From: Maritimibacter harenae
GTDB lineage: Bacteria > Pseudomonadota > Alphaproteobacteria > Rhodobacterales > Rhodobacteraceae
Assembly: GCF_009882975.1 (NCBI RefSeq)
Contig: NZ_WTUX01000010.1
Span: forward strand, 356,367 to 420,366
Direction: 5' to 3'
Length of the DNA stretch: 64,000 nucleotides
The notes under the pieces were generated by a model, which worked only from the letters and a program-made list of their open reading frames with translations, searched no databases and was not told the DNA's origin. Shown one piece after another: positions 11,219 to 42,077 of this stretch. The stretch's first letter is position 1, and every line of letters begins with the position of its first letter. Position numbers and translations under genes: made by a program.

Positions 11219-12499
11219 TCAGGTGGCGTGTTCGCGGACCACGTAGAAGACCATCAGCACGATCCCCCAGAGCATCGTCGCGAAGGCGATGAACACCAGG
11301 ATGTTGCGCACCGGCTTGGGGTAAGTGGGGTCCTGGGGCAGGGTGGGACGCACGAAGGAAGCGATGTAGCGCTGCTGGCGATCGGCCTCGAGCCGGGCGG
11401 CTTCGCGAGACGCCAGCGCCGAGACATAGGCCTGCTGAAGGAATTCCAGGTCGACGGCCAGCCCTTCGTACACGCCGAGCCGTTCGGACATCGTGAGGTT
11501 CTCTTCGCCGCTGCCATCTTCGGACACCACGCGCCCGCCGTTGTCGCCCGTGCCCAGCCGTTCGCGCTGGTCGGAAAGCTGACGCTCCAGCGACTGGATC
11601 TCGTTCTTCAGGACGCGGACCGTGGGAGCGTCCTCGCTCAGGTAGTTCAGAAGCGAATTGAGCCGCGTGCGCGCGGTGGCCAGCTGGGTTTCGAGCTGGC
11701 CCAGAAGCTGCACCTGTGCGCCCGCCGAGGCTTCGGGGTTGATGTCCTGGCGCTCGTCGCGGAAGGACACCATCGCGCGCCGGTGCTCTTCGAGCTGCTG
11801 CTCGACGCGCGCGACCTCGCGTTCCGCGCTCTCCATGCTGTCGAAGCGGGCCTGCTCCGAGACCTCGTTCACCAGGTCGCTGGAGATTTCGAGGATCGCG
11901 GCCGACAGCGCCCGCGCGTTCTCCGGCGAAAACGCCTGCACTTCGAGCGTGAGGATCTGGGACGACGTGTCGAAGTAGATCGACACCCAGCGGTCGAGGT
12001 AGCTGCGCAGCTCCTCGGGGCTCGCGTCGTCCTTGAGGCGGGTGAGGAAGTCGGCCTGTTCGGTGTTGTAGATCTCGCGCAGGTCGACCTTGTCCTGCAA
12101 ACGCTCGATCAGGTCGCGGCTCTCCACGAATTCCACCAGCATGTAGCTGTCCGACATGGTCGAACCGGCCGACGACATTGTGGTCATCATGCTCAGCAGA
12201 TCGCCCGAGGGGACCGAGTTGGTGGGTGAGCGGACCGCGAACTTGGTCTCGACCGCGTACCGGTCCGCGGCGAAGGCGAACCAGTAGACGGACGCGAGGA
12301 TCGCGGGGATCACGACGAGCATCACGAAGCTGGCGATCGTGATGATGCGCCGGCGCCGCTGCGCCTTGTAGGTCCGCTTCGCCGCCTCGTTCGCGTTCAC
12401 CACATGCAGCTGCTGCGGCTTCTTCGCGGCGGGTTTCGCGTCCCCCTCCGGCTGTTCGGCCTTCTTTTCCGGTGTTTGCCCGTCAGGCGCCATTGCCAT
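11219..12499 (-). CDS. kpsE: Capsule polysaccharide export inner-membrane protein (KpsE/CtrB type)
   Basis: This 426-residue protein belongs to the polysaccharide co-polymerase/export family that links the capsule ABC transporter to the outer-membrane channel. After a basic, Lys/Ala-rich cytoplasmic N-terminus there is a membrane helix at about residues 52-74. A large periplasmic domain follows, with coiled-coil stretches (about 210-330: SAEREVARVEQQLEEHRRAM, KNEIQSLERQLSDQRERL). A PxxP-like YPKPVR motif leads into a second membrane helix at about 398-420. It is the last gene of a kpsM-kpsT-kpsE operon and ends at a shared terminator. Confidence 0.9.
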   Translation of the reverse strand: MAMAPDGQTPEKKAEQPEGDAKPAAKKPQQLHVVNANEAAKRTYKAQRRRRIITIASFVMLVVIPAILASVYWFAFAADRYAVETKFAVRSPTNSVPSGDLLSMMTTMSSAGSTMSDSYMLVEFVESRDLIERLQDKVDLREIYNTEQADFLTRLKDDASPEELRSYLDRWVSIYFDTSSQILTLEVQAFSPENARALSAAILEISSDLVNEVSEQARFDSMESAEREVARVEQQLEEHRRAMVSFRDERQDINPEASAGAQVQLLGQLETQLATARTRLNSLLNYLSEDAPTVRVLKNEIQSLERQLSDQRERLGTGDNGGRVVSEDGSGEENLTMSERLGVYEGLAVDLEFLQQAYVSALASREAARLEADRQQRYIASFVRPTLPQDPTYPKPVRNILVFIAFATMLWGIVLMVFYVVREHAT

Positions 12500-12572
12500 G
12501 GTCCTTGTTCGAAATCGCCGTCAGTCCGGCGCTATCATGAAGCCCATCAATATTTCGTCTATGCGGTGGACG

Positions 12573-13223
12573 TCATTCGTTGAGCTTGTTGTACCTGTCG
12601 ATGGCTTCTTCCAAGTCCTCGTAATACGTCATTATTCCATTGTGAACAACAAGACCGGTTTGGCAGTACTCACGCAGGTTGCTCATCGAGTGGGATACCA
12701 TGACCAGCCGGGAATGCGGCAAGCGGTCGTGAAACGCCTGCTTGGACTTGGCGCGAAACCGCGCATCCCCAACCGCCATGATTTCGTCGATCAGGTAGAC
12801 TTCGAAATCCACCGCCATCGACACGCCGAAGGCCAGCCGGGCGCCCATGCCCGATGAATAGGTGCGGAAGGGTTCGTAGAAGAACTTCCCCAACTCCGCG
12901 AAATCCTGCACTTTTTGGACCATTTCCTCGGTGTTCTGGCCGTAGATGCGCGCCACGAAACGCACGTTTTCCATGCCCGACAATTCGCGGTGGAAACTGC
13001 CGCGAAAGCCCAGCGGCCAGGACAGGGTCTTGTGACGCCGGATGATGCCGCCATCGGGCTCCTCGATGCCCGCGAGCAGGCGCAGGATGGTGGATTTGCC
13101 CGCGCCATTGCGCCCCAGCACGCCCACGTTCTGCCACGGAAGCTTGATCGTGGCGCCGTTGAGGATCTGCTGCCGACCGCCTCGAAGCGTGTAGGACTTC
13201 GAGACGTTCAGCATCTCGATCAT
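12573..13223 (-). CDS. kpsT: Capsule ABC transporter ATP-binding protein
   Basis: This 216-residue ATPase energises export of a lipid-linked polysaccharide through KpsM. Walker A is GRNGAGKST, the signature is TYSSGMGARLAF and Walker B is VYLIDEIMAVGD; the short C-terminus is typical of KpsT. The ATG at 13223 is preferred because it overlaps the kpsM stop by four bases (ATGA). An ATG at 13247 would lie deeper in kpsM. Confidence 0.92.
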   Translation of the reverse strand: MIEMLNVSKSYTLRGGRQQILNGATIKLPWQNVGVLGRNGAGKSTILRLLAGIEEPDGGIIRRHKTLSWPLGFRGSFHRELSGMENVRFVARIYGQNTEEMVQKVQDFAELGKFFYEPFRTYSSGMGARLAFGVSMAVDFEVYLIDEIMAVGDARFRAKSKQAFHDRLPHSRLVMVSHSMSNLREYCQTGLVVHNGIMTYYEDLEEAIDRYNKLNE

Positions 13224-13981
13224 ATCGCTTTGAACCTGGTCAGCCATTCACCCACGAACCCGAAGCAATTGAGCACGACCACCCATGTGAAAAGGTAGAA
13301 AAGGCTCACGTCCGGCGCTGCATACTCCGCAAAATACCCGATGCGAAACCCCTCGACCCCGTGCACCAGCGGATTCCACCACAGGATGTCACGATATTGT
13401 GTGGGGATCGACGAGAGCGAGAAGAACACGCAGGAGACGAAAAAGGCCGGTCCCATGATGATGTGATAGAGGTTCTGGACCGAGGGCAGGAACCGCTTGA
13501 TCACCGCGAGCGACAGGCCCGCGCCGTTTGCCATGAGGAACATCAAAAGGATCGGGAGGGCCGCCAACGGCAGGTTCTTGGGCGGCTCGGCGTCCATCAC
13601 GATGACCTGGAAGGACAGGACCAGGAGCATCACCACGAGGTTCGTCATGGTGTCCAGAACCAACCGTCCCAGAACCGCGTCGAGTGGCTTGACCATCGGG
13701 TAGTTGAACAGGGGCCTGTTCGCCTCGAACGAGTGCATGATGTAGGCGGCCGAGTTGCGAAACGCGTTGAAGGACAACACGCCGGTGGCGAAGAACAGGG
13801 CGAAGTCGGTCGTCCCGTCTCCGGCCCTGAATTCCCGAAACAGCATCGTGAGGATCGTGACCTGGAGCACGGGCTCCACGATCGCCCAGGTGTAGCCCGC
13901 CTTGGACCGTCCGTGGCGCACGCGCGCCTCGCGCAGCACGAGTGCAAGGATCACGCGGATATGTGTGCGCAGAGCCTTCAT
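13220..13981 (-). CDS. kpsM: Capsule ABC transporter permease
   Basis: This 253-residue ABC-2 type permease has six predicted membrane segments and the family N-terminus ILALVLREARVRHG...GYTWAIVEPVLQ. It forms the membrane channel of a capsule-type polysaccharide exporter with KpsT. It is the first gene of the operon and diverges from the polyketide synthase gene 243 bases away, which places the exporter with the biosynthetic genes on the other side. Confidence 0.92.
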   Translation of the reverse strand: MKALRTHIRVILALVLREARVRHGRSKAGYTWAIVEPVLQVTILTMLFREFRAGDGTTDFALFFATGVLSFNAFRNSAAYIMHSFEANRPLFNYPMVKPLDAVLGRLVLDTMTNLVVMLLVLSFQVIVMDAEPPKNLPLAALPILLMFLMANGAGLSLAVIKRFLPSVQNLYHIIMGPAFFVSCVFFSLSSIPTQYRDILWWNPLVHGVEGFRIGYFAEYAAPDVSLFYLFTWVVVLNCFGFVGEWLTRFKAI

Positions 13982-14224
13982 TCCATCCTCGTCGAAGGGG
14001 CGGGATTACCGCCGAGTCACGCTTCGTTAACCATAGTCGTGTTGACTCGTATGGGTGAAACACGGTCAGTTTGATAGACAGATCGGCAGATTTCGTCAAA
14101 ACCAGATGGTCTTGGCTTCGTTGCTGGAAGTTGTCCGAAAGGCGAGGTAGGACGGACAAGTCTGAACGGAGAAGACGAATCCGGACGCGTCAGAACGTGC
14201 AATAAAGGCCTGGGAACCCGCCAG
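13982..14224. promoter_or_regulatory. Divergent control region kpsM / polyketide synthase
   Basis: The 243-base spacer is less GC-rich than the flanking genes. It contains an inverted repeat TTGTCCG-N15-CGGACAA at 14131-14159, about 65 bases before the synthase start, which could be an operator or a leader hairpin. I could not place a confident promoter. Confidence 0.4.
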
Positions 14225-17200
14225 ATGGATGCCATTTACGTAATCGGACAGGCCTGCAGATTACCGGGGGCGCCCGACGTCGCCGGATTCCGCAGCCTTT
14301 TGCAGGACGGCCGGTGCGCCGTGAGCGAAATTCCGCAGGATCGCTGGTCGCACAGCCTCTACCTGAACCCCAAGCAGGGTGTGCCGGGCAAATCCTACAC
14401 CTTCCGTGCGGGCGTTCTGGACGACATCTGGGGCTTCGATCTCTCCGTCTTCAAGTTCTCGCCGCGCGAAGCGATCCAGATGGATCCGCAGCAGCGGCTT
14501 CTCCTTCAGGTGGTGTGGGAAGCGCTGGAAGATGCGCGCCTCGACGCCACCAAGCTCGCGGGCAAGCGGGTGGGCGTCTACGTGGGCGCCTCCAGCATGG
14601 ACCACGGCACGATCCTCGGGCGCGACGCCTCGCTCGTGGACAGTTACCTGATGACCGGCAACACCCTGTCGCTGGTCGCCAACCGCATCTCGCACGGCTT
14701 CGACCTGCGCGGCCCGTCCTTCGTGGTCGACACCGCCTGTTCGTCGTCCCTCGTCGCGCTCGACCAGGCGCGCCAGGCGCTGGCGAGCGGTGACATCGAC
14801 ACCGCCGTCGTGGCCGGGGTGAGCCTTCTCATGACGCCGCAGAGCTTCGCGGGCTTCTCCGCCGCGCGGATGCTGTCGCCCACGGGGCTGTGCCAGTCCT
14901 TCTCGGACAAGGCCGACGGCTACGTCCGGGCCGAGGGCTGCGTCGCTCTGGTGCTGCACAGTTCCTCAGACGTGCCCGCGACCGCGACGGCGCGGCTTGT
15001 GGATTCCGAGACGAACGCCGACGGCTATACCATGAACGTGGCGCTGCCCGCTGAAGAGGGGCAGTACGAGCTTCTGTCGCGCCTCTACGACCGGCAATCG
15101 CTGTCGCCCGACGACCTGTCCTTCGTCGAGGCGCACGGGACCGGCACCCTCGTCGGCGACCCGATCGAGGCGCATGCGCTGGGGCGGGCCGTGTCGAAAC
15201 ACCGCAAATCGGCGTTGCCCATCGGGTCGGCCAAGTCGAACGTGGGCCACCTGGAACCCGCATCGGGCCTGGTCGGCACGCTCAAGGCGCTGATCGCGAT
15301 GCAGGACCGGCGCCTGCCGCCGTCGCTGCACGCCGAGAACCTGAACCCGCATATCGACTTCGACGAGCAGAAGTTGGTGCTGGCGCGCGAGCCGGTGGAC
15401 CTGGGCGACGGGCCGCTGATGGCCGGCGTCAGCTCTTTCGGCTTCGGCGGCGTCAATGCGCACGCGATCCTCGAGGGCGTGAACGCCCCGGCGCAAGAGG
15501 CGCCGGCGACGGCGACCAGCCCGGACCGGGTCTTCGTGACCTCCGCCTTCAGCGACGGTGCGCTCAAGGACCTCGCCACGGCCTACGCCGACCGGCTGGA
15601 GGCCCCCGCCGCGCTGACGCCCGGCGGGCTCGTCGATCAGGCCTGGCACAGCCGTGGGCTGCACCACAAGCGCCTGGGCGTGTTGGCCCGTGATGGCGCC
15701 GACGCGGCCGAAGCGCTGCGTGCCTTCGCTCACGGGCAGAAGGACCCGCGCGTCGTGTCCGTCGAGGGGCGCCAGCGCGAGGAGGCGCCGGTCTTCGTCT
15801 ATTCCGGGAACGGCTCGCAATATCTCGGCATGGGCCGGCTGCCCTACCGCAAGGACGAGGCATACCGCGCGGCCTACGATGAATTCGATGCCATCTTCAC
15901 CGAGATGATGGGATGGTCGGTCATCGACAAGATGAATTCCGAGACGCTGTCGCAGGAATGGGGCGATTGCCGCGTCATCCAGGCGCTCGTCATTGCCGAC
16001 CAGATCGCCCAGACGGCCGCGCTCGCGAAGCGGGGGATCGTCCCGGCGGCGACCATCGGCCATTCCGGTGGCGAGGTCGCGGCGGCCTGGGCCGCGGGCG
16101 CCCTGACACTCGAACAGGCGACCCATCTGGCCGTCAGCCGCAGCCGCACGCAGCTCCAGTTCGCAGGCACCGGCACGATGGCCGCGCTCCAGACGAGCGC
16201 CGAGCAGACGCGTGCCCTGCTGGACGAGTTCGGCGATCCGCAGATCGAGCTCGCCGCGATCAACTCGCCGCGCAGCGTCACGCTGGCCGGCCCCACGGAC
16301 CCGCTCAAGGCATTCGCGAAATGGGCCAAGCGCACTCACCGGCAGGCCTGCGTGATGCTCGATGTCAATTACCCGTTCCACAGCGCGATCCTGCAAAGCT
16401 CGGAGGACGAGCTGAAAGAAGGGCTGTCGGACATCGTGCCGTCGGAGGCGCGGGTTCCGATGTTCTCGACCACCACCGGCACGCTGGTGGCGGGCACCGA
16501 CCTCGACAGTGAATACTGGTGGGCGAACGTGCGCCAGCCGGTGCAGTTCAAGTCCGCGGTCGAGGCGGCCCGCGAGGCGGGCTTCTCGGCCTTCCTCGAA
16601 GTGGGCGCCCAGCCGGTCCTCCCGAACTACGTCACGGACTCGCTCGGCGATGATGCGCGCCACTGCGCGGTCGTCTCGACGCTCGCCAAGAACGACCCGG
16701 AGGGTGAGAACCCCATCGCGCGCGGGGCGCTGCGCGCCGTGCTCGCCGGGATCCGGACGGAGGCGAACAGCGTCTTCACCGCCACCACCGGTGCGCCGGT
16801 CGACCTGCCGACCTATCCGTTCCAGAACGAGGAACTGCGCGCGACCAACAGCCCGGAGCTTCAGAAGATCCTGGGCACCGATGACGAGCATCACCCGCTC
16901 CTCGGTGCGCCGCTGGCCGGTGAATCCGGCGTGTGGCGCCGCGACCTGGACGACGCGCTCTTCCCCGCACTGGCCGATCACAAGGTGGGCGACAGCGTTC
17001 TGTTGCCCGCGACCGCCTTCGCGGAAATGGCCTATGCCGCCGCGACGATCGAAGCGGGGGGGCAATCGGTCGAGATCTACGACCTCGATCTCTTCGCCCC
17101 CATCGTGCTGTCGTCCTCCGCCGGCGTCGAAATCCAGATCGAGGCGGACGTGGCCTCCGGCACGGTGCGTATCCTGTCGCGCGCACGCTTGTCGCATGAC

Positions 17201-20200
17201 GACTTCCGCGAGAACATGCGCGCGCGCTTCGCGGTGCATTCCAAATCGCCGGTGGCCCCGGCCGACACGGCGCCGGGCGACATCGCCAGTGACGAGGACG
17301 TGGCGCGCTGGGTCTACGATGACGCCGACCGGATCGGTCTGCGCTATGGTCCCGCTTTCCGTGGCCTGAAGGCCGCGCGCCGGTCCGGCGACGACATCGA
17401 CGTGATCCTCGAAGAGGGTCTGACCATCGGGTCGCATCCCGCAACGCACGGCTTCGATCCGGTGCAGGCGGATTGCCTGCTCCACGGGCTCATCGCGATC
17501 TCGACGGACACGACGGCCGCCGACATGCGCCAGGCCCTTCTTCCGATCCGGATCGGGCGGATGCAGGTCTATGCCCCGGGGACCGAGCTCGTGTCGGGTC
17601 GTCTTCACCTGCGCCGCTGGGGCGACCAGTCCGCCCATGCCGACCTGACCGCATTCGGCCCGTCGGGCGAAGTCGTGATGGTGATCGAGGGGCTGCGCCT
17701 GCGTGCCACGCAGGTCATCCCGCAGATCGAGTTCGACCGCCATGCCTTCCACGTCGAAGCGCACCCGGTGCTGGGCGCACCCGGTGCCGTCGCGGCCGAG
17801 GCGATTGCCGCCGCGCTCGACGCCGCGCTGCCCGCCGACGAGGCCGAGGATGACGCGCTTCTCCTGCTCGACGCCGCCGCGCAACAGGCGGTCTGGCAGG
17901 CGCTGCGCAAGGTTTGCGACAAGGATGGCGTCTACCGCATGCACCGCCCGGAAGACGGGCTGGAGGCGACCCTGATCGACATGCTGGCCCGGCTGGAGCT
18001 CGCCCAAGAGGGCGCGACGCTGGGCGAATGGCGCATCGCGGAAAGCTGCGACCTGCCGGATGCCGACGTGATCGGCCAGGCGCTGTTCGACGAGCGGCCC
18101 GACCTGATCGGACTGATCGCGCTGGTCCTCAGGCTCCCCGGCGCGCTGGACGAGGTGCTCGCGCGCGTGACCGACGACGAGGCCGCGCCGGAGCCCGCCG
18201 CGCTCTTCGGCCGCGAAGCCGTGCAGGCGATCGACACCGGGCCGCATGCGAAAGCCCGCAAGCGCCTGGTGGCCGCCGCGCTCGACACGATGATCGCGGC
18301 CGTGCCGAGGCATGCCGCCGCGCGGGTCGGCGCGCTCTCCGGTTTCGATATCGCCGACGGCGCGCTCGACACGTCGCACCCCGGCCTCGAGATCGCGCAG
18401 GTCATGTCGGCGGACGGCGAAGAGGGTCCGGTGTCCTCGCGTATCCGCACGATCAAGTGGGGGGAGGCCGACCGGCTCGACCTCGCGCTCGTCACCGACA
18501 CGCTGCAATTGTTCGAAGACGGCATGGATGAACGCTTCGCCGGCATCCTCGACCCCGACGGGCGCCTCGTGGTGGTCGTCCCGGCGATGTCCGCGTTCAA
18601 GCGCGCGGTGCTCATGTCGACCTCGAACCTGTCGCGCAGCGCCGACCTCGACCGCGTGCTCAAACGAATGGACGAACTGGGCTTCGCCATCGACCTGCAA
18701 CACGACCTGCCGGACGGGGCGGGCGGGGGCACGCTCCTCGTCGCGTCGCTCAAGGATGCGGGCGACGCGGACACGCCGACGGTCGGCCCCGACGAGGCCG
18801 GGCTTGCCGGCCGCGACCTCTGGGCCAAGGCGCTGACCCAGCTGCACGGCACGCTGTCGCTGCGCGAAGGCGCGCTCGACGTTCTGGTGCCGGAAACGAC
18901 CGCCGCGCCGATCATCGCCTATGGCAACGCCGGGGCGGACGAAGCGGAGCTTTCCGCGCGCGTGCTCGCGATCCGTGACCTCGTGGCCGAAGCGGCCGAG
19001 ACCGGGCGCGGGCTGCTGGCGATCCTGCCGCAGGGCGCGCAATACGCGGGCGGTCCCGCCGCCGACCCGGTGCAGCACGCGATCTGGTCCGTGCTGCGCA
19101 CCGCCGCCAACGAAAACCCCGGCCTGGCCATCAACGCGATCGACCCTGCGGGCGCCGACGTCACCGGCCCGGCCGGTCTGGCCGCGCTCCTCACCCGGAT
19201 CGAGGCCGAGCTGCCGCGCGAAAGCGAACTGGTCCTGTCGGGCCGCGCCGTGCTGGGCCTTCGGGTCGAGACCGGCCTGCCGCTCCGGCCGACCGAGGAC
19301 GATGGCGCGCTAACCGGCTCGCGGCTGAAGAAATCCGTGACCGGCCGCCTCGACGCCCTGCGCTGGGAAGCCGTGGAACGCGGACCGCTCGCCGATGGCG
19401 AGGTCGAGGTCGAGATCGCCGCGACCGGGCTCAACTACCGCGACGTGATGTGGTCCATGGGACTTCTGCCCGAGGAAGCGCTCGAGACCGGTTTCGCGGG
19501 TCCGACCCTGGGGCTGGAATGCGCCGGCCGCGTGTCGCGCGTCGGCGACGGCGTGACCGAGTTCAAGGTGGGCGATCCGGTCGTCGCCTTCGGCCCGTCC
19601 TGCTTCTCCTCGCATCTCGTCAGCCACGAGAAGTGGCTCGCCCGGCTGCCCGACGGCGTGTCGCTGTCGCAGGCCGCGACCCTGCCGGTGGCCTATTTCA
19701 CCGCCTACTTCTCGCTCGTCACGCTGGGCAACCTCCAGCCGGGCGAACGGGTTCTGATCCACGGCGGTGCCGGGGGCGTGGGCCTTGCGGCCATCCAGAT
19801 CGCCCGCGATATCGGGGCCGAGATCATCGCGACCGCCGGCAGCCCGGTGAAGCAGCAGCTCCTGCGGTCCATGGGTGTGGAGCACATCGTCTCTTCCCGC
19901 GACTCGGGTTTCGCCCACGCGGTGCGCGAGATCACCGGGGGCGAGGGTGTGGACGTGGTCCTCAACTCTCTCGCCGGTCAGGCGATGGAGCAGTCGCTTT
20001 CACTTCTGAAACCTTATGGCCGGTTCCTGGAGCTCGGGAAGCAGGATTACTATGCAAATACCGGCATTGGCCTGCGTCCGCTGAAGAACAACATCGCCTA
20101 CCACGGGATCGACGTGGACAGCCTGCTGGCCGACCGGCCGGACATCGCCAGCCGCGATTTCCGCCGCGTGATGGAGGGGATCGGCGAAGGCCGGTACGCC

Positions 20201-21481: not shown

Positions 21482-22839
21482 GTAACGGATCCCGCGGATT
21501 GTCGGGAGACGCACGCGCCCGCGCGTTGAACGCGGCGCGCGCGGCGCAGAAGAAATCCAACCGCTCCGGCGGGCCGATCGTGGACCACAAGCCCAACCCG
21601 CGGTTCGACGAACTGCCGGGCTACAAGGAACGCGCCCAGATGCGGCAGGTGTCCAAGCTGCACGACCTGGGCGACCCGACCTTCCGCCAGCACGAGGCGC
21701 ATCCGCGCGCGATGTCGCGCATCGATGGGCGCGACGTGATCAACTTTGGCTCCTACGACTACATCGGGCTCAACGCCGACCCGCGCCCCGGTGAAGCGGC
21801 CAAGGCCGCGATCGACACCTATGGCGTGTCGGCCTCGGCCAGCCGCCTGACGGCCGGGGAGCGCCCGATCCACCGCGAGCTCGAGGAACGGCTGGCTGCG
21901 CATTACCAAGTCGAGGATGCGCTGACCTTCGTCTCGGGCCACGCCACCAACGTCTCGGCCGTGGCGACGCTGGTCGGCAAGGACGACATCGTCATCTACG
22001 ACAGCTACATCCACAATTCCGCCTCGGTGGGCGCGACCCTGTCCGGCGCCACCCGCCGGTCGTTCCCGCACAACGACATCGACGCGCTCGAAACCATTCT
22101 CGCCGAGGGGGCGGGGCGCTACCGCTACACGCTGGTGATCGTCGAGGGCCATTACTCGATGGACGGCGACATCCCGGACCTGCCGCGCATCCTCGAGCTG
22201 AAGCAGCGTTACGGTTTCTGGCTCATGGTGGACGAGGCGCACGGGCTGGGCTGCATCGGCAAGACCGGCTGCGGGATGCGCGAGTACTACGACTTCCCCG
22301 GTTCCGAGGTCGACATCTGGATGGGCACGCTGTCGAAGACGCTGGGCTCCACCGGCGGCTATCTCGCGGGTTCCGCCGCGATGATCGACGCGATGAAATA
22401 CGAGGCGCCCGGATCGGTCTATTCCGTGGCGCTCGCCCCGGCGCTGGCGGCGGCAGCGAACGAGTCGCTTCAGATCATGCATGCCGAGCCCGAGCGCGTC
22501 ACGCGCCTCCATGAACGCGGCGCCTTCTTCCTCGACGTCGCGCGGTCGCTGGGGCTGGACACCGGCGCCTCGGTCGGCTCGTCGATCACGCCGATCATGG
22601 TCGGCGCCTCCCCCATCGCCGCGGCGGCGTCGAAGGAACTGCTGGAGGAGGGCGTCAACGCGCTGCCCATCGTGTTCCCGGGCGTGCCCATGAACCAGGC
22701 GCGGCTGCGGTTCTTCGTCACCTCGGAGCATACCGAGGACCAGATCCGTCACGCGCTCACCACCACCGCGGACATCCTGGCCAGGCTGCGCGAGGGCCCG
22801 TTGCAGGATCTCGCCAAGGCGTTGTCGAACACGGTTTGA
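21478..22839 (+). CDS. PLP-dependent alpha-oxoamine synthase (serine palmitoyltransferase/AONS family)
   Basis: This 453-residue enzyme belongs to the family of serine palmitoyltransferase, 8-amino-7-oxononanoate synthase and 5-aminolevulinate synthase. The family condenses an amino acid with an acyl thioester, losing CO2, to give an alpha-amino ketone. Lys287 in GTLSKTLGSTGG is the predicted PLP lysine. SGHATNVSAV, DEAHGLGCIG and SVALAPALAAA are family segments. An extra basic, Ser/Arg-rich extension of about 50 residues precedes the core. The four-base overlap with the synthase gene and the missing thioesterase suggest it takes the chain from the synthase's carrier domain, as FUM8 does for FUM1 in fumonisin synthesis. 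Amino acid choice (serine, alanine, glycine) cannot be read from sequence by eye. Confidence 0.9.
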   Translation: MSNGSRGLSGDARARALNAARAAQKKSNRSGGPIVDHKPNPRFDELPGYKERAQMRQVSKLHDLGDPTFRQHEAHPRAMSRIDGRDVINFGSYDYIGLNADPRPGEAAKAAIDTYGVSASASRLTAGERPIHRELEERLAAHYQVEDALTFVSGHATNVSAVATLVGKDDIVIYDSYIHNSASVGATLSGATRRSFPHNDIDALETILAEGAGRYRYTLVIVEGHYSMDGDIPDLPRILELKQRYGFWLMVDEAHGLGCIGKTGCGMREYYDFPGSEVDIWMGTLSKTLGSTGGYLAGSAAMIDAMKYEAPGSVYSVALAPALAAAANESLQIMHAEPERVTRLHERGAFFLDVARSLGLDTGASVGSSITPIMVGASPIAAAASKELLEEGVNALPIVFPGVPMNQARLRFFVTSEHTEDQIRHALTTTADILARLREGPLQDLAKALSNTV

Positions 22840-22879
22840 GACGGGCCACCGGACACGAACCGGCGATCGAGGGGCAGGC

Positions 22880-24655
22880 ATGACGGTGCACAGGATACAG
22901 GACGTGATCGGGCCCGACTTCGGCCGGCCCGCGCGCCTCTACGTCGCCCGCGGCCGGGCCGCGCAGGGTCCGCTGCCCTGGTCGCTCGCCCCGGGCGACG
23001 CGGTCGATCTCAATACCTACTTCAACGCCTTCTTCCCGGATGCCTGGGCGCGGCACACCGCGATCGGGCAGGTGGGCGTGCAGGTCGAGACCGAGGGCGC
23101 GGTCCGGGTCGAGATCGGCACCATCGACAACGCGGGCGACTGGCACACCCGGCTCGCCCGCGAGGTCGACGGGTCCGAGACGCTCTGGGTCGACACCCCC
23201 GGGATCGGACGCCTGGCAATGCGCCTGAGCGCATCCGAGGCGGCGACCGTGCGCGACCTGGCCTGGGTGACCGAGGCCGCGCCGGTCCAGGCCCCCACGC
23301 TCACCATCGGGCTGTGCACCTTCAACCGCGAGGATCAGCTGGCGATGACGCTGGACGCGCTTGCACGATTGCAGGATCGGCTGCCCGCAATCGCCCATAT
23401 CTACGTGGTGAACCAGGGCGCGACTTTCACGAATCCCGCAATCCGCGACATCGCGGAACGTGACGGTGTGAGCGTGATCGAGCAGACCAACCTGGGTGGC
23501 TGCGGCGGCTTCACCCGCACGATGATCGAGGCGACGGAGCGCACCGTTCCGGCGACCTATCACCTGTTGATGGACGACGATATCATCCTCGATCCGCGGG
23601 TCGTGGACCGCGCGCTCAGGTTCCTGGCCTACGCCACCGACGAGATCGCGCTGGGCGGTCAGATGATCGACCTCGACGCGCCCACCCGGCTGCGGGAATT
23701 CGGCGCGAAGCTGAACCCCACGCGCTACGTGGAACCGATCGGCGAGAACCTCGACCTCACCGACGATGTCCAACTGTCGCTGTTCCACGCCATGCCGCGC
23801 ATCGACTACAACGCGTGGTGGTTCTGCGTCATCCCGACGACGACGATCCGGCGCATCGGCCCGCCGGTCCCGATCTTCATCCGCGGCGACGACATCGAGT
23901 ACGGCTGCCGCATGGCGCGCGCAGGGGTCGAGACGATATCGCTGCCCGGCGTGGCGGTCTGGCACGAGAGCTTCCAGCACAAGACGAGCGACTGGCTGGA
24001 ATACTACAACATGCGCAACCGGCTGTTCGTGGCGACGCTCTACCCGGAACTGGTGTGGCGGCCGGCGGCCTATTACCTCTTCGGTTACATCCTCGTCTTC
24101 CTGTTCCAGCACCGCTTCCGCACCGCCGAGATGGTGATCCTGGCGATGCAGGACGTGCTCTCTGGCGTCGACACGGCGCTGGGCGAGGACGCGGAGGCGC
24201 GGCACGTGGCGCTGATGGCGCGCCAGAAGGACTACCCGGATTACATCGAGCTCGCGCCCGGGGACCTTCCGGAGACGATCCCGGGCGACCCCGAACCGCT
24301 CGATACCTCGGTCCCCGCGATGGTGGTGCTTTCGGTCTGGTCGGTGATCGGGGTGCACTGGAACGCGATCGCGCGGCTGTGGCGCAAGCCGTTGCAGTTT
24401 CCCTACGTGCCGATGCCCAACAACATCGGGGCGCGTGATTACGTGGCGCCGAAGACGCCGGAGGCAGACCGCTACGTGTACTATCGCACGCGGATCTGGC
24501 CGGTCTGGTCGATCATGGCGCGGGGGCTGTGGGTGTCGCTGCGCTACGGGCTGACCCCGAAGGCGCGGTTCCGCAAGACCGCCGAAACGCTGGAGGCGCG
24601 GCGCGACCCGGCGCTCTGGCGTCGCATGTTCGCCCTGCCGCGCGGGCGGTTCTGA
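22880..24655 (+). CDS. GlfT2-like family 2 glycosyltransferase
   Basis: This 591-residue protein resembles polymerising galactofuranosyltransferases (GlfT2 type). An N-terminal beta-rich domain (about 1-145, starting with SLAPGDAVDLNTYFNAFF) precedes a GT-A domain. That domain has Asp232-Asp234 (MDDDI) for metal and nucleotide sugar binding, the base motif FIRGDDIEYG (Asp337/Asp338) and His362 in WHESF. C-terminal helices follow and may be membrane-associated. Gene order after the lipid-forming enzymes suggests it adds sugar, possibly galactofuranose, to the lipid or to a capsule primer. The sugar is inferred from fold similarity only. Confidence 0.85.
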   Translation: MTVHRIQDVIGPDFGRPARLYVARGRAAQGPLPWSLAPGDAVDLNTYFNAFFPDAWARHTAIGQVGVQVETEGAVRVEIGTIDNAGDWHTRLAREVDGSETLWVDTPGIGRLAMRLSASEAATVRDLAWVTEAAPVQAPTLTIGLCTFNREDQLAMTLDALARLQDRLPAIAHIYVVNQGATFTNPAIRDIAERDGVSVIEQTNLGGCGGFTRTMIEATERTVPATYHLLMDDDIILDPRVVDRALRFLAYATDEIALGGQMIDLDAPTRLREFGAKLNPTRYVEPIGENLDLTDDVQLSLFHAMPRIDYNAWWFCVIPTTTIRRIGPPVPIFIRGDDIEYGCRMARAGVETISLPGVAVWHESFQHKTSDWLEYYNMRNRLFVATLYPELVWRPAAYYLFGYILVFLFQHRFRTAEMVILAMQDVLSGVDTALGEDAEARHVALMARQKDYPDYIELAPGDLPETIPGDPEPLDTSVPAMVVLSVWSVIGVHWNAIARLWRKPLQFPYVPMPNNIGARDYVAPKTPEADRYVYYRTRIWPVWSIMARGLWVSLRYGLTPKARFRKTAETLEARRDPALWRRMFALPRGRF

Positions 24656-24726
24656 GCCACGGCGTCACCGTCTCCTCGGGCTGCGCAGTACATGCAGCCC
24701 CGCCGAAACCTGGCCACCCGCGAAAA

Positions 24727-24757
24727 CCACTTTTCCGGAAAACCGGTTTTCCGGTGG
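24727..24757. terminator. Convergent-gene terminator palindrome
   Basis: A perfect 20-base palindrome (CCGGAAAACC / GGTTTTCCGG, 24735-24754) with flanking CCAC/GTGG sits between the convergent glycosyltransferase and methyltransferase genes and contains T-rich arms on both strands. Confidence 0.65.
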
Positions 24758-24819
24758 CCGCAACCACCTGGTTCATTGGGGTTTCCCGGCCGAAAACGTG
24801 AACGCGGCGTTCACCCGGG

Positions 24820-25656
24820 TCAGGAAGGTTTGCGCAGCACGGCCGCGAAATCGGCGCGCAGCCCGTGCTCGTATTCCTCGTATTCCGGGCTGCCCGGCAT
24901 GTCCGCCCAGCGATAGGCATAGAGGCTGAAGGGCCATGGCACGCGCTTCAACGCGGCCTCGCGGCGCGGGATGTCCGCCTTGAGCGAGGCGAAGGTATGC
25001 GGAGTGATGTCGCGGTAGGCGAGCACCTCGAGCCCCTCGCGCGCGGCGGCCTCGCGGATTTCGGCCTCGACCTTGGCGTGGTCGCCCTGCCGGTACCCGC
25101 CGGAGAAGCTGATCAGCCCGCCCGGCGTCACCACCCGGCCGGCCTCCTCGATGAAGAGCGTCAGGCCGAAATAGGTCGGCGCCCCCACGCTCACCACCAT
25201 GTCGAAGCTTTCGTCGCCGAAGGCCAGCCCGCCGGAGTGTCCGCGGGTGATCGTCGCCTCGATCAGCCCCTTCGTGCGTCGCTTGGCAAGCCGGACGGCG
25301 GCGGCCGAGCGTTCGGTCCCGGTCATGTCCGCCTCCGGGTAGAGCCGCGACAGGTAGACCATCCCGCCGCCTTGGCCGCAGCCCACGTCGAGGATGTGCC
25401 GAGGCGCCGGCGCCTGGTCCTTGACCATCGTGTGCCCGGCCTGGTGGTACATCATGGCCGAGTGATCCTCGCCCGCGAACTCCGGGTGCGACACGAAATC
25501 CGGATCGACCGGCAGGTATCCGCCGTTGAAGAACCACATCCGGCGTGCCGGCGAGAGCCGGTAGAGCACGTCATAGGCCACCAGGTCGAACAGGTGGAAG
25601 GCGAAGCCGAACACCCGCTTGCCCAGCGTGTCCTGTGCGCGAAGTAGGTCTGGCAT
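24820..25656 (-). CDS. SAM-dependent methyltransferase, polyketide-associated type
   Basis: This 278-residue class I methyltransferase has the SAM-binding motif DVGCGQGGG at residues 90-98, followed by TGTERSAAAV and the post-motif VVTPGGLISFSGGY. The N-terminal helical part with YDVLYRLSPARRMWFFNGGY resembles methyltransferases that act on lipid polyketides such as phthiotriol. It is the only biosynthetic gene of this block on the minus strand and shares a promoter region of under 100 bases with the KpsS-like gene. It could methylate a hydroxyl or amino group of the synthase product or a sugar. Confidence 0.8.
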   Translation of the reverse strand: MPDLLRAQDTLGKRVFGFAFHLFDLVAYDVLYRLSPARRMWFFNGGYLPVDPDFVSHPEFAGEDHSAMMYHQAGHTMVKDQAPAPRHILDVGCGQGGGMVYLSRLYPEADMTGTERSAAAVRLAKRRTKGLIEATITRGHSGGLAFGDESFDMVVSVGAPTYFGLTLFIEEAGRVVTPGGLISFSGGYRQGDHAKVEAEIREAAAREGLEVLAYRDITPHTFASLKADIPRREAALKRVPWPFSLYAYRWADMPGSPEYEEYEHGLRADFAAVLRKPS

Positions 25657-25752
25657 CCTGCCTCCGGATCGTGATTAAACAGCCGCAGCCTTAATGCGAT
25701 ACGACAGCCGAAAATGGAACAGCCGATGAGCGGGGCGCCGAACGGGGCGGAA

Positions 25753-27054
25753 ATGCGCAGTTTCCTGTTTCTGCAGGGCCCGACCTCGCGGGCATTCCGC
25801 GACCTTGGCCAGGCGCTGGCGGCGCGCGGCCACAAGGTGCTGAAGGTGAATTTCTGCCCGGGCGACTGGCTGTTCTGGCATGGTCGCGACACGACGATGT
25901 ATCTCGGCGCGCGCGACCGCTGGCCCGACCGCCTGCGCGCGCTCATCCGCGAGCGCGGCGTGACGGACATCATCTATTTCGCCGACCGCTTTCCCTACCA
26001 CAAGGCCGCCCAGAGCGTCGCGCAGGAAGAGGGCGTGCGTTGCGTGTCGATGGAATACGGCTACCTGCGCCCCGACTGGCTGATCCTCGAAGAAGGGGGG
26101 CAGTCGACCTATTCCCACGTTCCGGCCGACCCCGCGGCGTTCCGAAAGGCCGCCGCCGCGCTCGACCCGGTGGACGAACACGTCCTCTATTCCGGCACGC
26201 GCTTCGAGGAGGAATTCTCCGAGGCGAGCTTTCACCTGTCCAACGGCTTTCTCGGCTGGCTCACCCCGCGCTACCGGCCGAACCGCTACTACCCGGTTCT
26301 GATCGAGTTCCCGGCCTACATCCCGCGCTTCATCCGCCGCGCGCGCAACGAGAAAGAGGCCGAGGCACGGGTCCGCGCCTTCCAGGCCGAGCCGAAGACC
26401 CGTTTCCTCGTGCCGATGCAGATGCAGAGCGACTACCAGCTGCGCGACAACGCCCCGGCAGGGTTCCAGGAGGGGTTCATCCGGCAGGTCATGACCTCGT
26501 TCCGCGATCATGCACCGGCGGATGCCGAGTTGATCTTCAAGCTCCACCCGATGGATCAGGGGCTGGAGCGGTGGGAGCGGCGGGTGCCGCGCATGGCGCG
26601 CGAAATCGGGATCGCGGACCGGTGCCACTTTCTCGACGGGGGCGACCTGGGTGCGCTTTTCGGGCTGGCGGCGGGCTGCGTCGTGATCAACTCGACAATG
26701 GGGCTCATCTCGCTGCGCCGGGGCGTGCCGACCAAGGCGATGGGCATCGCGATCTACGACATCGAGGGGATGACGCATGGCGGCCCGCTCGACAGTTTCT
26801 GGACCGCGCCGCAGGCCCCGGACAGGTCGCTCGTGCGCGCCTTCGTGCGCGCGATCGCCCACGGCATCCACGTGCGCGGCACCATCTACGGCGACGAGGG
26901 ACGGGCGGCCTTCGTGCAGAACGCGATCGAGCGGCTGGAGAGCGACCGGCTGAACCGTCACGGCCTTTACGACCCGCGCCCCCCGCGGCTCGACAAGGCC
27001 GAGGCGATCGGGGTGCGCGTCGATTGGCCCATGCGCCGGAAGAAAGCGTCGTGA
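25753..27054 (+). CDS. KpsS-like capsule polysaccharide biosynthesis/export protein
   Basis: This protein of about 433 residues matches the KpsS family, Kdo transferases that build the poly-Kdo linker on the lipid anchor of group 2 type capsules. The family start RSFLFLQGPTSRAFRDLGQALAARGH, given here in two parts, and the later FKLHPMDQG and VINSTMGLISLRRGVP motifs are typical. I place the start at the ATG at 25753, which directly precedes the conserved N-terminus and has a GGGGCGG ribosome site. In-frame ATGs at 25714 and 25726 are possible. No KpsC partner lies in the window. The dehydrogenase gene overlaps its stop by GTGA. Confidence 0.82.
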   Translation: MRSFLFLQGPTSRAFRDLGQALAARGHKVLKVNFCPGDWLFWHGRDTTMYLGARDRWPDRLRALIRERGVTDIIYFADRFPYHKAAQSVAQEEGVRCVSMEYGYLRPDWLILEEGGQSTYSHVPADPAAFRKAAAALDPVDEHVLYSGTRFEEEFSEASFHLSNGFLGWLTPRYRPNRYYPVLIEFPAYIPRFIRRARNEKEAEARVRAFQAEPKTRFLVPMQMQSDYQLRDNAPAGFQEGFIRQVMTSFRDHAPADAELIFKLHPMDQGLERWERRVPRMAREIGIADRCHFLDGGDLGALFGLAAGCVVINSTMGLISLRRGVPTKAMGIAIYDIEGMTHGGPLDSFWTAPQAPDRSLVRAFVRAIAHGIHVRGTIYGDEGRAAFVQNAIERLESDRLNRHGLYDPRPPRLDKAEAIGVRVDWPMRRKKAS

Positions 27055-27839
27055 GCGGCCCGCGCCGCATCCTGATTACCGGCGCCGGTTCCGGGCTGGG
27101 TCTTGAATTGGCCCGGCAACTGGCCACCCCCGGCGTGACCTTCATCATCTGCGGGCGGCGCCTCTCCGCGCTCGACGCTGCCGCCGCAGAGCTCCGGGCG
27201 CTCGGCGCCGAGGTTGAGACCAGCGCGGTGGACCTGACCGACCCGGCGGCGCGCGATGCCTGGGTCGCCACGGCGAGCGCCGGGACCATCGACCTCGCGA
27301 TCCTGAACGCGGCGCAGTTCGGTGGACGCGGGCGCGACGGGATGCTCGAGCGTCCCGACGTGGCCGCGCGGATGATCGACACGAACCTGGCCGCGCCGGT
27401 GGCGCTGGCGCTGCGCCTGTCCGACCAGATGCGCGCGGCGGGGCAGGGGACGCTGCTTTTCATCTCGTCGCTCGGGGCTTTCGCCGTGCAGGCGGACGCG
27501 CCGACCTATTCGGCCACCAAGGCCGGGCTCACCGCCTTCGCGCGCTCCCTGCGCGAGGACCTGGGACCGGACGGCGTGCGCGTCGTGATCGCGCACCCGG
27601 GCCACATGGAGACCGCGCAGACCGAGGTACATCGCGGCCCGTTGCCGGGCCTGATGCCGGTGAAGGACGCCGCGCGGGTGATCCTGGCAGGGCTCGAGGC
27701 CGGGCGCAGCGAGATCGATTTCCCCCGTCACCTGCGCCTGGGGCTGCGACTCCAGGCGCTCCTGCCGTGGAAGGTGCAGGCGCGGATCAATCGCGGTCTG
27801 CGCTTCTGGGTCGATGACGGGGAGGATGACCGAACGTAA
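27051..27839 (+). CDS. Short-chain dehydrogenase/reductase (candidate 3-ketosphinganine-type reductase)
   Basis: This 262-residue classical SDR has the cofactor motif TGAGSGLG at residues 10-17, a catalytic serine in FISSLG, and Tyr153 and Lys157 in YSATK. The GTG start overlaps the preceding stop by four bases, so it is coupled to the KpsS-like gene. In a block with an alpha-oxoamine synthase, an obvious role is reduction of the alpha-amino ketone to an amino alcohol. That is the step that follows serine palmitoyltransferase in sphingolipid synthesis. The family is broad, so this role is inference from context. Confidence 0.85.
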   Translation: MSGPRRILITGAGSGLGLELARQLATPGVTFIICGRRLSALDAAAAELRALGAEVETSAVDLTDPAARDAWVATASAGTIDLAILNAAQFGGRGRDGMLERPDVAARMIDTNLAAPVALALRLSDQMRAAGQGTLLFISSLGAFAVQADAPTYSATKAGLTAFARSLREDLGPDGVRVVIAHPGHMETAQTEVHRGPLPGLMPVKDAARVILAGLEAGRSEIDFPRHLRLGLRLQALLPWKVQARINRGLRFWVDDGEDDRT

Positions 27840-35818: not shown

Positions 35819-37064
<1,246 letters not shown>

Positions 37065-37068
<4 letters not shown>

Positions 37069-38006
37069 GTGCTTTCCTCCAGTTTCGCGTTGCGCAGGGC
37101 TGCGATGATCGCGTCCGCCCTGTCATGATAAGTCTCCGGTCCCGGGGGAAGCCCCAGGGATCCCAACTCGTGTTGCCACTCCGTGGTCGCCGCCGCCATG
37201 CGCGCGGGCACTCCAAGGTCGGACACCGTGCGGGCCACTTCGCGCATCTCGGCGGCGCGCCGGAGCCCGTGGGTGGTCGTGCGTTCCATATTATAGGCCG
37301 CCTTCGCGCCCCAGTCCCAGCCCGGCATCGAGGCGTCGAGCGAGGCGATGACCTCGTCGTCGACACCGGCCTGCCGTGCGGCGAGCAGACATTCCAGCGT
37401 CAGCGCCTCGATCCCCTTGATCATCACGCTGCGCAGCATCTTGATCGACGAGGCGCGGCCGACCTCTCCCGCGACAACGCGCGCGTCCATCCCGAGAGTT
37501 CCCATAAGCTCGGCGGCCGCGGCCGCGTGCGGGCCGGAGAGAAGCATCGGCGCGCGGTGCAGCTTGGGGCGGATCGGCGACATGATCGCCGTGTCGACGT
37601 AGCGCAGGCCCGCCGCCTCGATCACCTGGGCCGAGGCGCGCTTGGTCTCCGGCGCGCAGGAATTGGCGTCGAGGTAGAGCGTGCCCGGCGCCATGACGGT
37701 CGCGGCCGCGCGGGCCGCGTCGTGGGCGCGGTCGGCGGTGACGACCGAGAAGACCGCGCGCGCCTCCGCGAGCGCAGCGCCGATCGTTTCGGCCCCGCGC
37801 ACGTCGGCCGCGTCGTAGCGGTCCCACATCGCCGCGGCATCGGACGTGTCCGGGTTCGCGGTCTTGATGTCGTAGGCGGTGAGGATCAGCGTCGGATCGA
37901 CGCTGCGCCAGCCCTCGGCCAGCGCATAGCCAGCCTCGCCGAAACCCAGAAGGGCCACGGCCGAGAGCGCCTCGGGGCGCGCGGAGGGGTTTTGATCCGT
38001 TCGCAT
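37065..38006 (-). CDS. NAD(P)-binding beta-hydroxyacid dehydrogenase-like protein with DUF1932 domain
   Basis: This protein of about 313 residues has an N-terminal Rossmann fold (VALLGFGEAGYALAEGW) of the 3-hydroxyisobutyrate/6-phosphogluconate dehydrogenase kind and a C-terminal DUF1932 domain (SSIKMLRSVMIKGIEALTLE). It is the first gene of the lig operon and is coupled to ligA, so it probably acts on a protocatechuate-pathway intermediate, but I know of no proven role. The start is uncertain. ATG at 38006 and ATG at 38018 both lie within a palindromic operator and lack a ribosome site. A GTG at 37958 directly before the Rossmann strand, with a GAGG upstream, may be the true start and would leave the operator in the promoter. 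Confidence 0.82.
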
Positions 38007-38016
38007 GTATACATGC
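38003..38016. promoter_or_regulatory. Perfect palindromic operator GCATGTATACATGC
   Basis: This 14-base perfect palindrome lies at the 5' end of the lig operon, between the LysR-type gene and the DUF1932 gene. Its core ATGTATACAT is almost the same as ATGTATGCAT at 43006 and 43182 and ATGTATACA at 10232. The form is typical of GntR-family operators, and no GntR gene is present in the window. Confidence 0.6.
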
Positions 38017-38062
38017 ATCTAGGAATGACGTGGCGCGAAGGGAAATTCATTGCCCAGAAATG

Positions 38063-39301
38063 TTATTCAATTTGGGCATAGGGCTGTGTCGCGTCGCCGG
38101 TCGCGGCCTGCTCCAGCAACGTGATGAACCGCTCCTGTGTCGGGGTCGGAACCCAGCCCGCGCGCGTGGTCAGGCCGATCACCCGCGTGCTGTCGGGCAA
38201 GTCCACGTCGAGCAGGACCATGTCGCCGTGATGGATTTCGACGGCTGCCTGGTGGGGTGACAGGATCGTCAGGTAATCGCCACGCGCCAGCAGGCCGCGC
38301 ACCAGCACCATCGACGAGGACACGATGCGCACCGGCGTCTGGTCGAGATCGCCGATGCCCAGCGCCCGGAACAGGTACGAGCCGCCCGGCGTCTCTTTCG
38401 GCGGCGCGATCCACGGGTAGTCCAGCGTGTCGGCCACGCTGAGCCCGCGCCGCCCCGCAAGCGGATGGTTGGGCCCGGCCACCACCGCGAGCCGGTCCTC
38501 GAAGAGCGGTGCCTGTTCCACGTCGTCCACGGGCAGCGGGTCGCGCAGCGCGCCGATCAGCACGTCGATCTCGCCGTAGCGCAGGCCGCGCAGAAGCTCG
38601 GCATAGGGCGCGTCGATGGTGCGGATCTGCACGCCCGAGGAGCCCGCCAGCAGCGCGTCGATCGCCTGCGGCAGGATGCGGGTGCGCGACAGCGGCATGG
38701 TGCCCACGGTGATGCGCGTGCTGTCGCGGCCGGCAAGGCGGGTGAGATCGTCGAGCCCCTGTTTGAGCTCTGCCTCGGCGAGCTTCACGGCGCGCGCGAA
38801 GGCTTCGGCCTGCGGCGTGAGCTCGATCCCGCGCCGGCCGGCCGAAAAGAGCGTCATGCCCGCCAGCCGCTCGAGGTCACGCGCGGCGCGGTGGATGGAT
38901 GGCTGCGAAATGCCCAGCGTGCGCGCGGCGAGCGAGAAGTTCCCGGCCTCGCGGATCGCGATCAGCGCGCGCAGCTGGGCCGCCGTCACGCGCAGGTGGA
39001 AATCCGCGACCGGCTTGCCTTCGCGCCGGGCGATGCGCACCGCGATGGCCGCGCCGTGGGCGAGGTGGTCGAACATCCGGCGCACGCGGGTCAGGAGCGC
39101 GGCGCCTTCCTCGGTCGCGAACATGCCCTCGGGCCGGCGGTCGAGCAGCTTCACCCCGAGGCGCTTCTCGAGGCCGGAGATCGCCTGCGTCACGGCCGGC
39201 TGGCTCAGGTGAACCTTGTGCGCCGCGGCGGATATGCCGTGGGCATCGGCAACTTCCATGAAGGCACGCAGATGCCGAAGATTCGGGAATTCAACCGTCA
39301 T
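38063..39301 (-). CDS. LysR-type regulator with two tandem helix-turn-helix domains
   Basis: This 412-residue regulator is about 110 residues longer than ordinary LysR proteins because the DNA-binding domain is duplicated. Domain one (residues 7-66) has AAAHKVHLSQPAVTQAISGL and domain two (104-163) has LAARTLGISQPSIHRAARDL. A normal effector-binding domain (about 190-400) follows. It lies between the lig operon, which it precedes on the same strand, and the divergent galB operon, so it is the likely controller of both. The 178-base spacer to galB contains a 14-base palindrome. The effector is probably an aromatic pathway intermediate; that is inference. Confidence 0.88.
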   Translation of the reverse strand: MTVEFPNLRHLRAFMEVADAHGISAAAHKVHLSQPAVTQAISGLEKRLGVKLLDRRPEGMFATEEGAALLTRVRRMFDHLAHGAAIAVRIARREGKPVADFHLRVTAAQLRALIAIREAGNFSLAARTLGISQPSIHRAARDLERLAGMTLFSAGRRGIELTPQAEAFARAVKLAEAELKQGLDDLTRLAGRDSTRITVGTMPLSRTRILPQAIDALLAGSSGVQIRTIDAPYAELLRGLRYGEIDVLIGALRDPLPVDDVEQAPLFEDRLAVVAGPNHPLAGRRGLSVADTLDYPWIAPPKETPGGSYLFRALGIGDLDQTPVRIVSSSMVLVRGLLARGDYLTILSPHQAAVEIHHGDMVLLDVDLPDSTRVIGLTTRAGWVPTPTQERFITLLEQAATGDATQPYAQIE

Positions 39302-39332
39302 TCCAGTGGTTTGCCCCTTTCTTCGAGCCGAT

Positions 39333-42076: not shown

Positions 42077-42077
42077 G

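Follow-up and report, generated by a model that had tools for sequence, protein, structure and literature searches.

We analyzed a 64,000-nucleotide stretch of the Maritimibacter harenae genome (contig NZ_WTUX01000010.1, positions 356,367 to 420,366; here called the window), in which a capsule exporter (kpsMTE) adjoins genes for a reducing polyketide synthase (PKS), an alpha-oxoamine synthase (AOS), a GlfT2-like glycosyltransferase, a methyltransferase, a KpsS/RkpJ-like capsule protein and a short-chain dehydrogenase/reductase (SDR). Judged by sequence comparison, the locus looks like a Rhodobacteraceae relative of the rhizobial rkp-1 region to which the GlfT2-like transferase and the methyltransferase have been added. 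We favor, with moderate confidence, the reading that it is a Rhodobacteraceae variant of an rkp-1/wcb-type capsule lipid module, which would make an amino-alcohol lipid to prime or carry an exported, galactofuranose-containing polysaccharide. Gene families, motifs, conservation, gene fusions and the kinship with rkp-1 are the observations behind this reading; from them we infer the reactions, the amino acid used, the role of the lipid as anchor or carrier and the choice between a single galactofuranose residue and a polymer.

Proposed lipid-building genes and their kinship with the rkp-1 region

In the available passages of four papers, the parts found here occur in combination both in the rkp-1 region (Sinorhizobium and Rhizobium) and in wcb clusters (PMC3557214, PMC4881576, PMC7902896, PMC3908369); one of these papers describes most wcb and rkp genes as homologous, with a type I PKS as well as capsule genes (PMC3908369). 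The passages seen assign rkp-1 a role in making a lipid carrier and report that it is required for secretion of poly-Kdo (Kdo is 3-deoxy-D-manno-oct-2-ulosonic acid) in S. meliloti 1021 (PMC4881576). An earlier note on this DNA, made from the letters alone, knew of no described bacterial system with these parts; that claim does not survive, and we rejected the idea of a wholly new system on the strength of the rkp-1 and wcb literature and of an annotated S. meliloti locus. The latter, on pSymB of strain Ak57, contains an export protein gene on the minus strand, a PKS gene, an AOS gene joined to it by a four-base overlap, an SDR gene, a gap, a capsule protein gene and KpsF; its PKS is annotated as an SDR-family protein, and RkpI falls in the gap. 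Proteins of the window were 41% (ketosynthase-acyltransferase [KS-AT] part of the PKS), 52% (AOS), 40% (KpsS-like protein and RkpJ) and 25% (SDR and RkpH) identical to those of S. meliloti.

Phylogeny gave a similar picture. We built a KS-AT tree of 51 sequences, with 41 rows labeled AOS-linked and nine other PKSs that were not checked for a nearby AOS. All AOS-linked rows except one (G095, from a broken contig) separated from the rest at 100/99, and the nine-row Rhodobacteraceae group that includes the window's PKS lay nearest the Rhizobiaceae group (81/88). For the AOS, the nearest group was Rhizobiaceae (95/81) in the larger of two trees, which contained three wrong rows for serine palmitoyltransferase (SPT), and the smaller tree did not resolve the placement. 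The wrong-strand rows were L245 to L247, of which the smaller tree kept L245; the valid SPT rows were L244 and L248, and we draw no conclusion about SPT from either tree. The AOS is nearer RkpG (52%, 414 bits) than any solved AOS (best 212 bits by phmmer), so we rejected an assignment as SPT itself. It carries the motifs SKT286 and DEAH252, and at 1e-5 its one match elsewhere in its own genome is a 5-aminolevulinate synthase-like gene (34%; named by eye). The amino acid that it uses is not readable from sequence.

The domain order of the PKS, by Pfam, is KS, AT, dehydratase, an unassigned stretch (residues 1163 to 1723), enoylreductase (ER), ketoreductase (KR) and acyl carrier protein (ACP). 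The KS, AT, ER and KR were recognizable by their motifs (CSSSL172, HGTGT304, GHSGG612, GGAGGVG1847 and GGLGGMG2047); the ACP was recognized by Pfam, and our own ACP pattern search of the PKS gave no match. Beyond the ACP, Pfam recognized no thioesterase or other release domain; chain release is therefore probably the work of a separate enzyme. The proposal that PKS, AOS and SDR act in series, already made in the earlier note, was strengthened by this and by two fusions. In Cognatishimia activa (L093:14947-17073), the KpsS-like protein and the SDR form a single fused open frame of 709 amino acids (aa), and fusion is a textbook indication that two proteins work together. On plasmid p3 of Planktothrix agardhii (L224:1548-9146), an AOS forms the C-terminal end of one annotated type I PKS frame, with two annotated glycosyltransferase genes nearby; this PKS, which carried no AOS-linked label in the KS-AT tree, grouped outside the RkpA-type set.

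In the pathway that we envisage, the iterative PKS would assemble a long, reduced acyl chain attached to its ACP. The AOS would free that chain by condensing it with an amino acid in a decarboxylative reaction, and the SDR would convert the resulting alpha-amino ketone to a sphingoid-like amino alcohol. The KpsS/RkpJ-like protein would place Kdo or a related acidic sugar on this lipid, the GlfT2-like enzyme would transfer a single galactofuranose unit or many of them, with UDP-galactofuranose as donor, and the methyltransferase might cap a hydroxyl or amine of the lipid or sugar. KpsM, KpsT and KpsE, together with a KpsD encoded on another contig, would then export the product.

Table 1. Features of the proposed capsule lipid locus, in window coordinates
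Feature	Position	Strand	Basis
kpsE, BexC/CtrB/KpsE-type inner-membrane export protein, 426 aa	11219..12499	-	TIGR01010 245 bits, cut-off 437.5; phmmer to 8tsh
kpsT, ATP-binding cassette (ABC) transporter ATPase, 224 aa	12573..13247	-	PF00005; adjoins kpsM/kpsE
kpsM, ABC-2 permease, 253 aa	13220..13981	-	PF01061; NF050053 123 bits, cut-off 300; 8tsh
Divergent intergenic region kpsM/PKS, 243 bases	13982..14224	.	Coordinates
RkpA-type iterative reducing PKS, 2418 aa	14225..21481	+	Pfam, motifs, tree
RkpG-type AOS, pyridoxal phosphate enzyme, 453 aa	21478..22839	+	PF00155, motifs, 52% to S. meliloti AOS
GlfT2-like glycosyltransferase, probable galactofuranosyltransferase, 591 aa	22880..24655	+	phmmer to 9dtp, motifs
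Class I S-adenosylmethionine (SAM) methyltransferase, 278 aa	24820..25656	-	PF13649
KpsS/RkpJ-like protein, probable Kdo transferase, 446 aa	25714..27054	+	PF05159 211 bits
SDR, probable keto reductase, 262 aa	27051..27839	+	PF00106

All nine open frames, including that of the SDR, were present at 11219 to 27839 when open reading frames and coordinates were checked (Table 1). Third-position G+C was 0.79 to 0.91 in the eight frames other than the SDR, which is the 3' portion of a longer open frame. Pfam and NCBIfam matches back the gene names, with every quoted NCBIfam score under its curated cut-off and kpsE without a Pfam match. The parts list drawn up before this analysis, with its 243-base divergence between kpsM and the PKS gene, was thus borne out, and the gene order given for the downstream block also stood, except that the methyltransferase gene is encoded on the minus strand, so that it converges with the transferase gene and diverges from that of the KpsS-like protein. 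The PKS-to-SDR block is therefore not one operon, and we rejected a co-linear eight-gene operon both for this reason and because the locus is split in one relative (G229, below). Where "several" four-base overlaps had been reported, we found them at two junctions only, PKS/AOS (ATGA) and KpsS/SDR (GTGA); kpsM and kpsT overlap by 28 bases, and 40 bases separate the AOS and transferase genes. Farther along the window, at 35819 to 49409, lies a putative aromatic degradation cluster with LigA/LigB-type and PobA-type genes, named by eye.

Recurrence of the locus in relatives

Locus layouts were read from tblastn matches, as a gene caller based on codon composition mis-called or missed genes in G036, L093 and others. 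All nine genes recur in a Maritimibacter locus (L092) and in Cognatishimia (L093), and most of them recur in L127, G012 and G104; their grouping is therefore not a matter of chance. In L092, L093, G012 and G104, kpsETM lie opposite a PKS-AOS-transferase-methyltransferase (minus strand)-KpsS series, with the SDR following KpsS in L092 and L093; L127 ends at a contig end inside the methyltransferase gene. Next to kpsE, G012 and G104 also encode an export protein resembling RkpU and an SDR resembling RkpH (37 to 39%), and in two further loci (L094 and L108) the SDR directly follows the AOS and the transferase is missing. The closest named locus by AOS, among the matches listed, was that of a Maritimibacter metagenome-assembled genome (88%).

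For a wider view, components were sought by tblastn (E of 1e-10 and 60 bits) in the best 80 of 142 named loci found with the AOS. A PKS was present in 80/80, an SDR in 75, a KpsS/RkpJ-like protein in 55, an RkpI-like protein in 54 and an RkpU-like protein in 56. Counts were lower for kpsM (9), kpsT (14) and kpsE (12), and lowest for the transferase (3), the methyltransferase (3) and UDP-galactopyranose mutase (1). Co-occurrence of the full gene set, found in L092 and L093, does not hold throughout: the locus is split in G229, and the transferase or methyltransferase occurs in 3 of the best 80 loci, none of them rhizobial.

In a family sample of 248 genomes, the AOS found a match at 1e-70 in 17, with at least 45% identity in 11 (M. 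harenae included). A PKS lay beside the AOS in 10 of these 11, the contigs of the other (G095) being broken. kpsM, kpsT and kpsE were within ~20 kb in 7/11 (G000, which is M. harenae itself, G229, G012, G104, G101, G036 and G061); G162 and G168 had only KpsS-type genes near the PKS-AOS pair, and G095 was not assessable. Six genomes had weaker AOS matches, and the sole one inspected (G210) had no PKS within ~10 kb. As queries, the PKS matched 114/248 genomes at 1e-60, mostly at ~28 to 37% and in the KS-AT part only, and KpsM, a common protein, matched 171/248 at 1e-8. A class sample of 385 genomes contained the AOS in 17, M. harenae among them; the 16 others provided 17 loci, 13 of them with a PKS, and 7 of those 13 also had a kps gene. 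Across the family, the class and the named loci, PKS-AOS and kps genes were repeatedly linked, as the earlier note had anticipated.

The module also occurs on plasmids. Sixteen plasmid records had an AOS match, and among the seven examined, a PKS and an AOS together with capsule or exporter genes were found in Shinella, Caballeronia, Paraburkholderia and Pseudomonas. Plasmid pL21564-1 of Pseudomonas sp. TMW 2.1634 (L236), from poultry meat and typed as mobilizable, carries genes for a PKS, an AOS, a KpsS-type protein, a lipoteichoic acid (LTA) synthase-like protein, KpsF and kdsB, so the module may travel. Shinella plasmid pgSHIWSC3 (L238) has a PKS, an AOS, an SDR, a SAM methyltransferase, two KpsE-like genes and exporter genes; its methyltransferase gave no match above 45 bits to that of the window.

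This recurrence bears on the idea that the locus is an ordinary secondary-metabolite cluster, making a diffusible amino ketone such as a signal, with capsule genes as chance neighbors. AOS-type enzymes do make signals as well (the autoinducer synthase PRK07179 was among the matches listed), and in some relatives the PKS-AOS pair has no kps genes nearby. Against this, the kps linkage is repeated in alpha-, beta- and gammaproteobacteria, and the KpsS-like protein is fused to the SDR in Cognatishimia; we consider a metabolite cluster very improbable.

Galactofuranose, export and the fate of the proposed lipid

The transferase is, judged by its relatives, a probable galactofuranosyltransferase: it matched the solved galactofuranosyltransferase 9dtp at 2.2e-50 and GlfT2 (4fix) at 1.8e-45 (phmmer). 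Its motifs DDD (residues 232 to 234) and DD (337 and 338, in DDIEY337) were invariant in 4/4 aligned relatives, and the GlfT2 N-terminal domain PF17994 scored 25.8 bits, where the cut-off is 26.1. In two relatives (G012 and L127), a UDP-galactopyranose mutase gene lies between the AOS and transferase genes, making UDP-galactofuranose the likely donor. By eye, from the first residues, a mutase-like gene is also near transferase homologues in G040 and G221, and in L093 the position between AOS and transferase is taken by another gene, one that weakly resembles capsule synthesis genes. M. harenae has one mutase gene, unlinked, on another contig (C63). Of the 25 places with a transferase in the family sample, 13 had a listed KpsM no more than 20 kb away; without the four PKS-AOS loci, the figure was 9/21. 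In this count unlisted KpsM rows are misses, and a crude chance estimate is ~1% per place. A second GlfT2-like gene, 30% identical, is located elsewhere in the genome (C50:18651-19862), ~350 kb from the window's KpsM. For the methyltransferase, the best NCBIfam match was phthiotriol methyltransferase (71 bits, far under the cut-off of 300), and no solved relative was found at 1e-6.

In the passages available, Kingella PamC is a galactan synthase that its authors' comparison makes GlfT2-like, with both motifs essential (PMC12269835). By analogy, the transferase may make a polymer rather than decorate the lipid. A more specific claim, which we offer only tentatively, is a galactofuranose capsule polymerized in the cytosol by the GlfT2-like enzyme directly on the PKS/AOS-derived sphingoid-like amino alcohol and exported by KpsMTE; as part of the same joint claim, and equally tentative, the polyketide-derived sphingoid anchor would replace phosphatidylglycerol.

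Of the exporter genes, kpsE matched the capsular protein (2.6e-48, phmmer) and kpsM the permease (1e-28) of solved complex 8tsh. The group-2 exporter set is completed by a KpsD-like export protein on another contig (C57:268142-272727; L179 and L180), where it forms a KpsS-KpsD-KpsC trio among riboflavin and other housekeeping genes (by eye); no kpsMTE was recognized beside this trio. KpsM had a single tblastn match in the genome at E 0.001, so one exporter probably serves the products of both KpsS sets. The window's KpsS-like protein, a probable Kdo transferase by family membership, resembles S. meliloti RkpJ (40%, 310 bits) more than the genome's other KpsS (31%, 166 bits).

The second capsule set suggests an explanation that we regard as possible but rather doubtful, namely, that two systems run in parallel: the KpsS, KpsD and KpsC on C57 would work with the window's kpsMTE to make a group-2 capsule on phosphatidylglycerol-Kdo, and the PKS, AOS, SDR, methyltransferase and transferase would make a separate, galactofuranosylated amino lipid that remains in the membrane and is not the capsule anchor. 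It would fit with the trio elsewhere in the genome, with the phospholipid anchor on S. meliloti poly-Kdo named in the title of Fraysse 2005, with the Kdo-phosphatidylglycerol terminus described as conserved in the available parts of a 2025 review (PMC12220298) and with the presence of KpsM in 171/248 family genomes compared to AOS in at most 11. A KpsS/RkpJ-type gene nevertheless accompanies PKS-AOS in 55 of the best 80 loci, the KpsS-SDR fusion ties a capsule-type sugar transferase to the lipid genes, and rkp-1 is reported as required for poly-Kdo secretion (PMC4881576, passages seen). Alternatively, the PKS-AOS lipid could be a carrier or chaperone during export only, taken off the finished polysaccharide, which would afterward bear a phospholipid. 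Papers, in the passages available, call the rkp-1 product a lipid carrier or anchor, and the phospholipid terminus of the Fraysse 2005 title would agree with such a role; Pfam, on the other hand, recognized no hydrolase or exchange enzyme among the nine proteins, and we judge this explanation unlikely.

Several observations weigh against the capsule lipid module that we favor. Identity of the SDR to RkpH is low (25%), and tblastn with R. tropici RkpI found no match in the window at E 1. The Kdo-transferase assignment of the KpsS-like protein comes from its family alone; searching with a profile built from 15 KpsS/RkpJ proteins gave 9 solved chains at E 0.5 to 1, none of them a convincing relative. 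The genome's own KpsS-KpsD-KpsC set would, by its sequence, suffice for a Kdo-phosphatidylglycerol anchor, and the 2025 review, in the parts available, gives the Kdo-phosphatidylglycerol terminus as conserved among capsules exported in this way, except in the case of Vi (PMC12220298). Given the phospholipid anchor reported for S. meliloti, the rkp lipid may perhaps be a carrier only. The Planktothrix PKS falls with other PKSs, so its fusion to an AOS lends weak support. Capsule linkage is also incomplete: of the 69 loci exceeding 20 kb, 19 lacked KpsS/RkpJ, KpsM and KpsE at a distance of 10 kb or less (RkpU and RkpI were missing from 5 of the 19 as well), 6/13 PKS-AOS loci of the class sample showed no kps gene (some being shortened by contig ends) and G083, whose KpsS pair lies on a different contig, had no kps gene within ~20 kb of its PKS-AOS genes. 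In G229, a genome of the same genus (L057, L058 and L240), the locus is split between transferase and methyltransferase by ~2.5 Mb along the contig. One half, beside purU, contains exporter, PKS, AOS and transferase genes, and the other contains the methyltransferase, KpsS and SDR genes next to genes for ABC transporters that, by eye, resemble those to the right of the locus in the window; both halves are kept at 62 to 86% identity.

The rkp-1 genes were published in 1993 to 1997, and in the literature passages available we did not find their lipid chemistry settled. Among the matches listed, no paper described a capsule anchor of the sphingoid type made by PKS and AOS, and none placed a galactofuranosyl transferase within an rkp-type locus; given this scope, the absence is weak evidence. 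The words Sinorhizobium and Rhizob- are absent from the available parts of the 2025 review (PMC12220298). If our reading is true, ABC-exported capsules would gain a class of lipid anchor beyond the Kdo-phosphatidylglycerol and Vi glycolipid of that review (PMC12220298, parts available), and the Rhodobacteraceae version would join that class to galactofuranose. The KpsS-SDR fusion and the coupling of PKS to AOS point to a concrete structure testable by lipidomics, a PKS-derived amino alcohol passed to a KpsS-type transferase.

Comparison with known systems

The fumonisin genes FUM1, FUM8 and FUM13 of fungi embody the same logic of reducing PKS, AOS and reductase as this locus, and the earlier note had chosen them for comparison; they are not the closest parallel, rkp-1 and wcb being nearer. 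We know of no capsule genes in the fumonisin cluster, and the window's PKS differs from that system in having no methyltransferase domain recognized by Pfam.

Group-2 capsule systems (E. coli and Neisseria) are matched by kpsMTE in the window and by KpsS-KpsD-KpsC on another contig. To our knowledge, the classical group-2 system includes neither a PKS nor an AOS. Its classical anchor, unlike the lipid proposed here, is Kdo-phosphatidylglycerol (PMC12220298, parts available). With mycobacterial GlfT2, to which its sequence was compared, and Kingella PamC, the transferase shares the DXD and DD motifs and, in relatives, a mutase partner; it differs from both in its linkage to PKS-AOS lipid genes and an ABC exporter.

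Three plasmid loci, from Paraburkholderia, Caballeronia and Pseudomonas, which we call wcb-type, resemble the window in having PKS, AOS and SDR genes (3/3) and a KpsS-type gene (2/3, Paraburkholderia and Pseudomonas), the Caballeronia locus having exporter genes. They differ in carrying an LTA-synthase-like gene (3/3) and a deacetylase gene (2/3), and none of the three gave a GlfT2-like match. The rkp-1 region (rkpU, rkpA, G, H, I and J) shares with the window the type of PKS, an AOS with a four-base overlap, an SDR, a KpsS/RkpJ-like protein and an export gene divergent to the PKS. The window differs from it in lacking RkpI (sulfatase/LTA-synthase type), in placing the SDR after KpsS, in having kpsMTE rather than rkpU beside the PKS and in its additional GlfT2-like transferase and methyltransferase.

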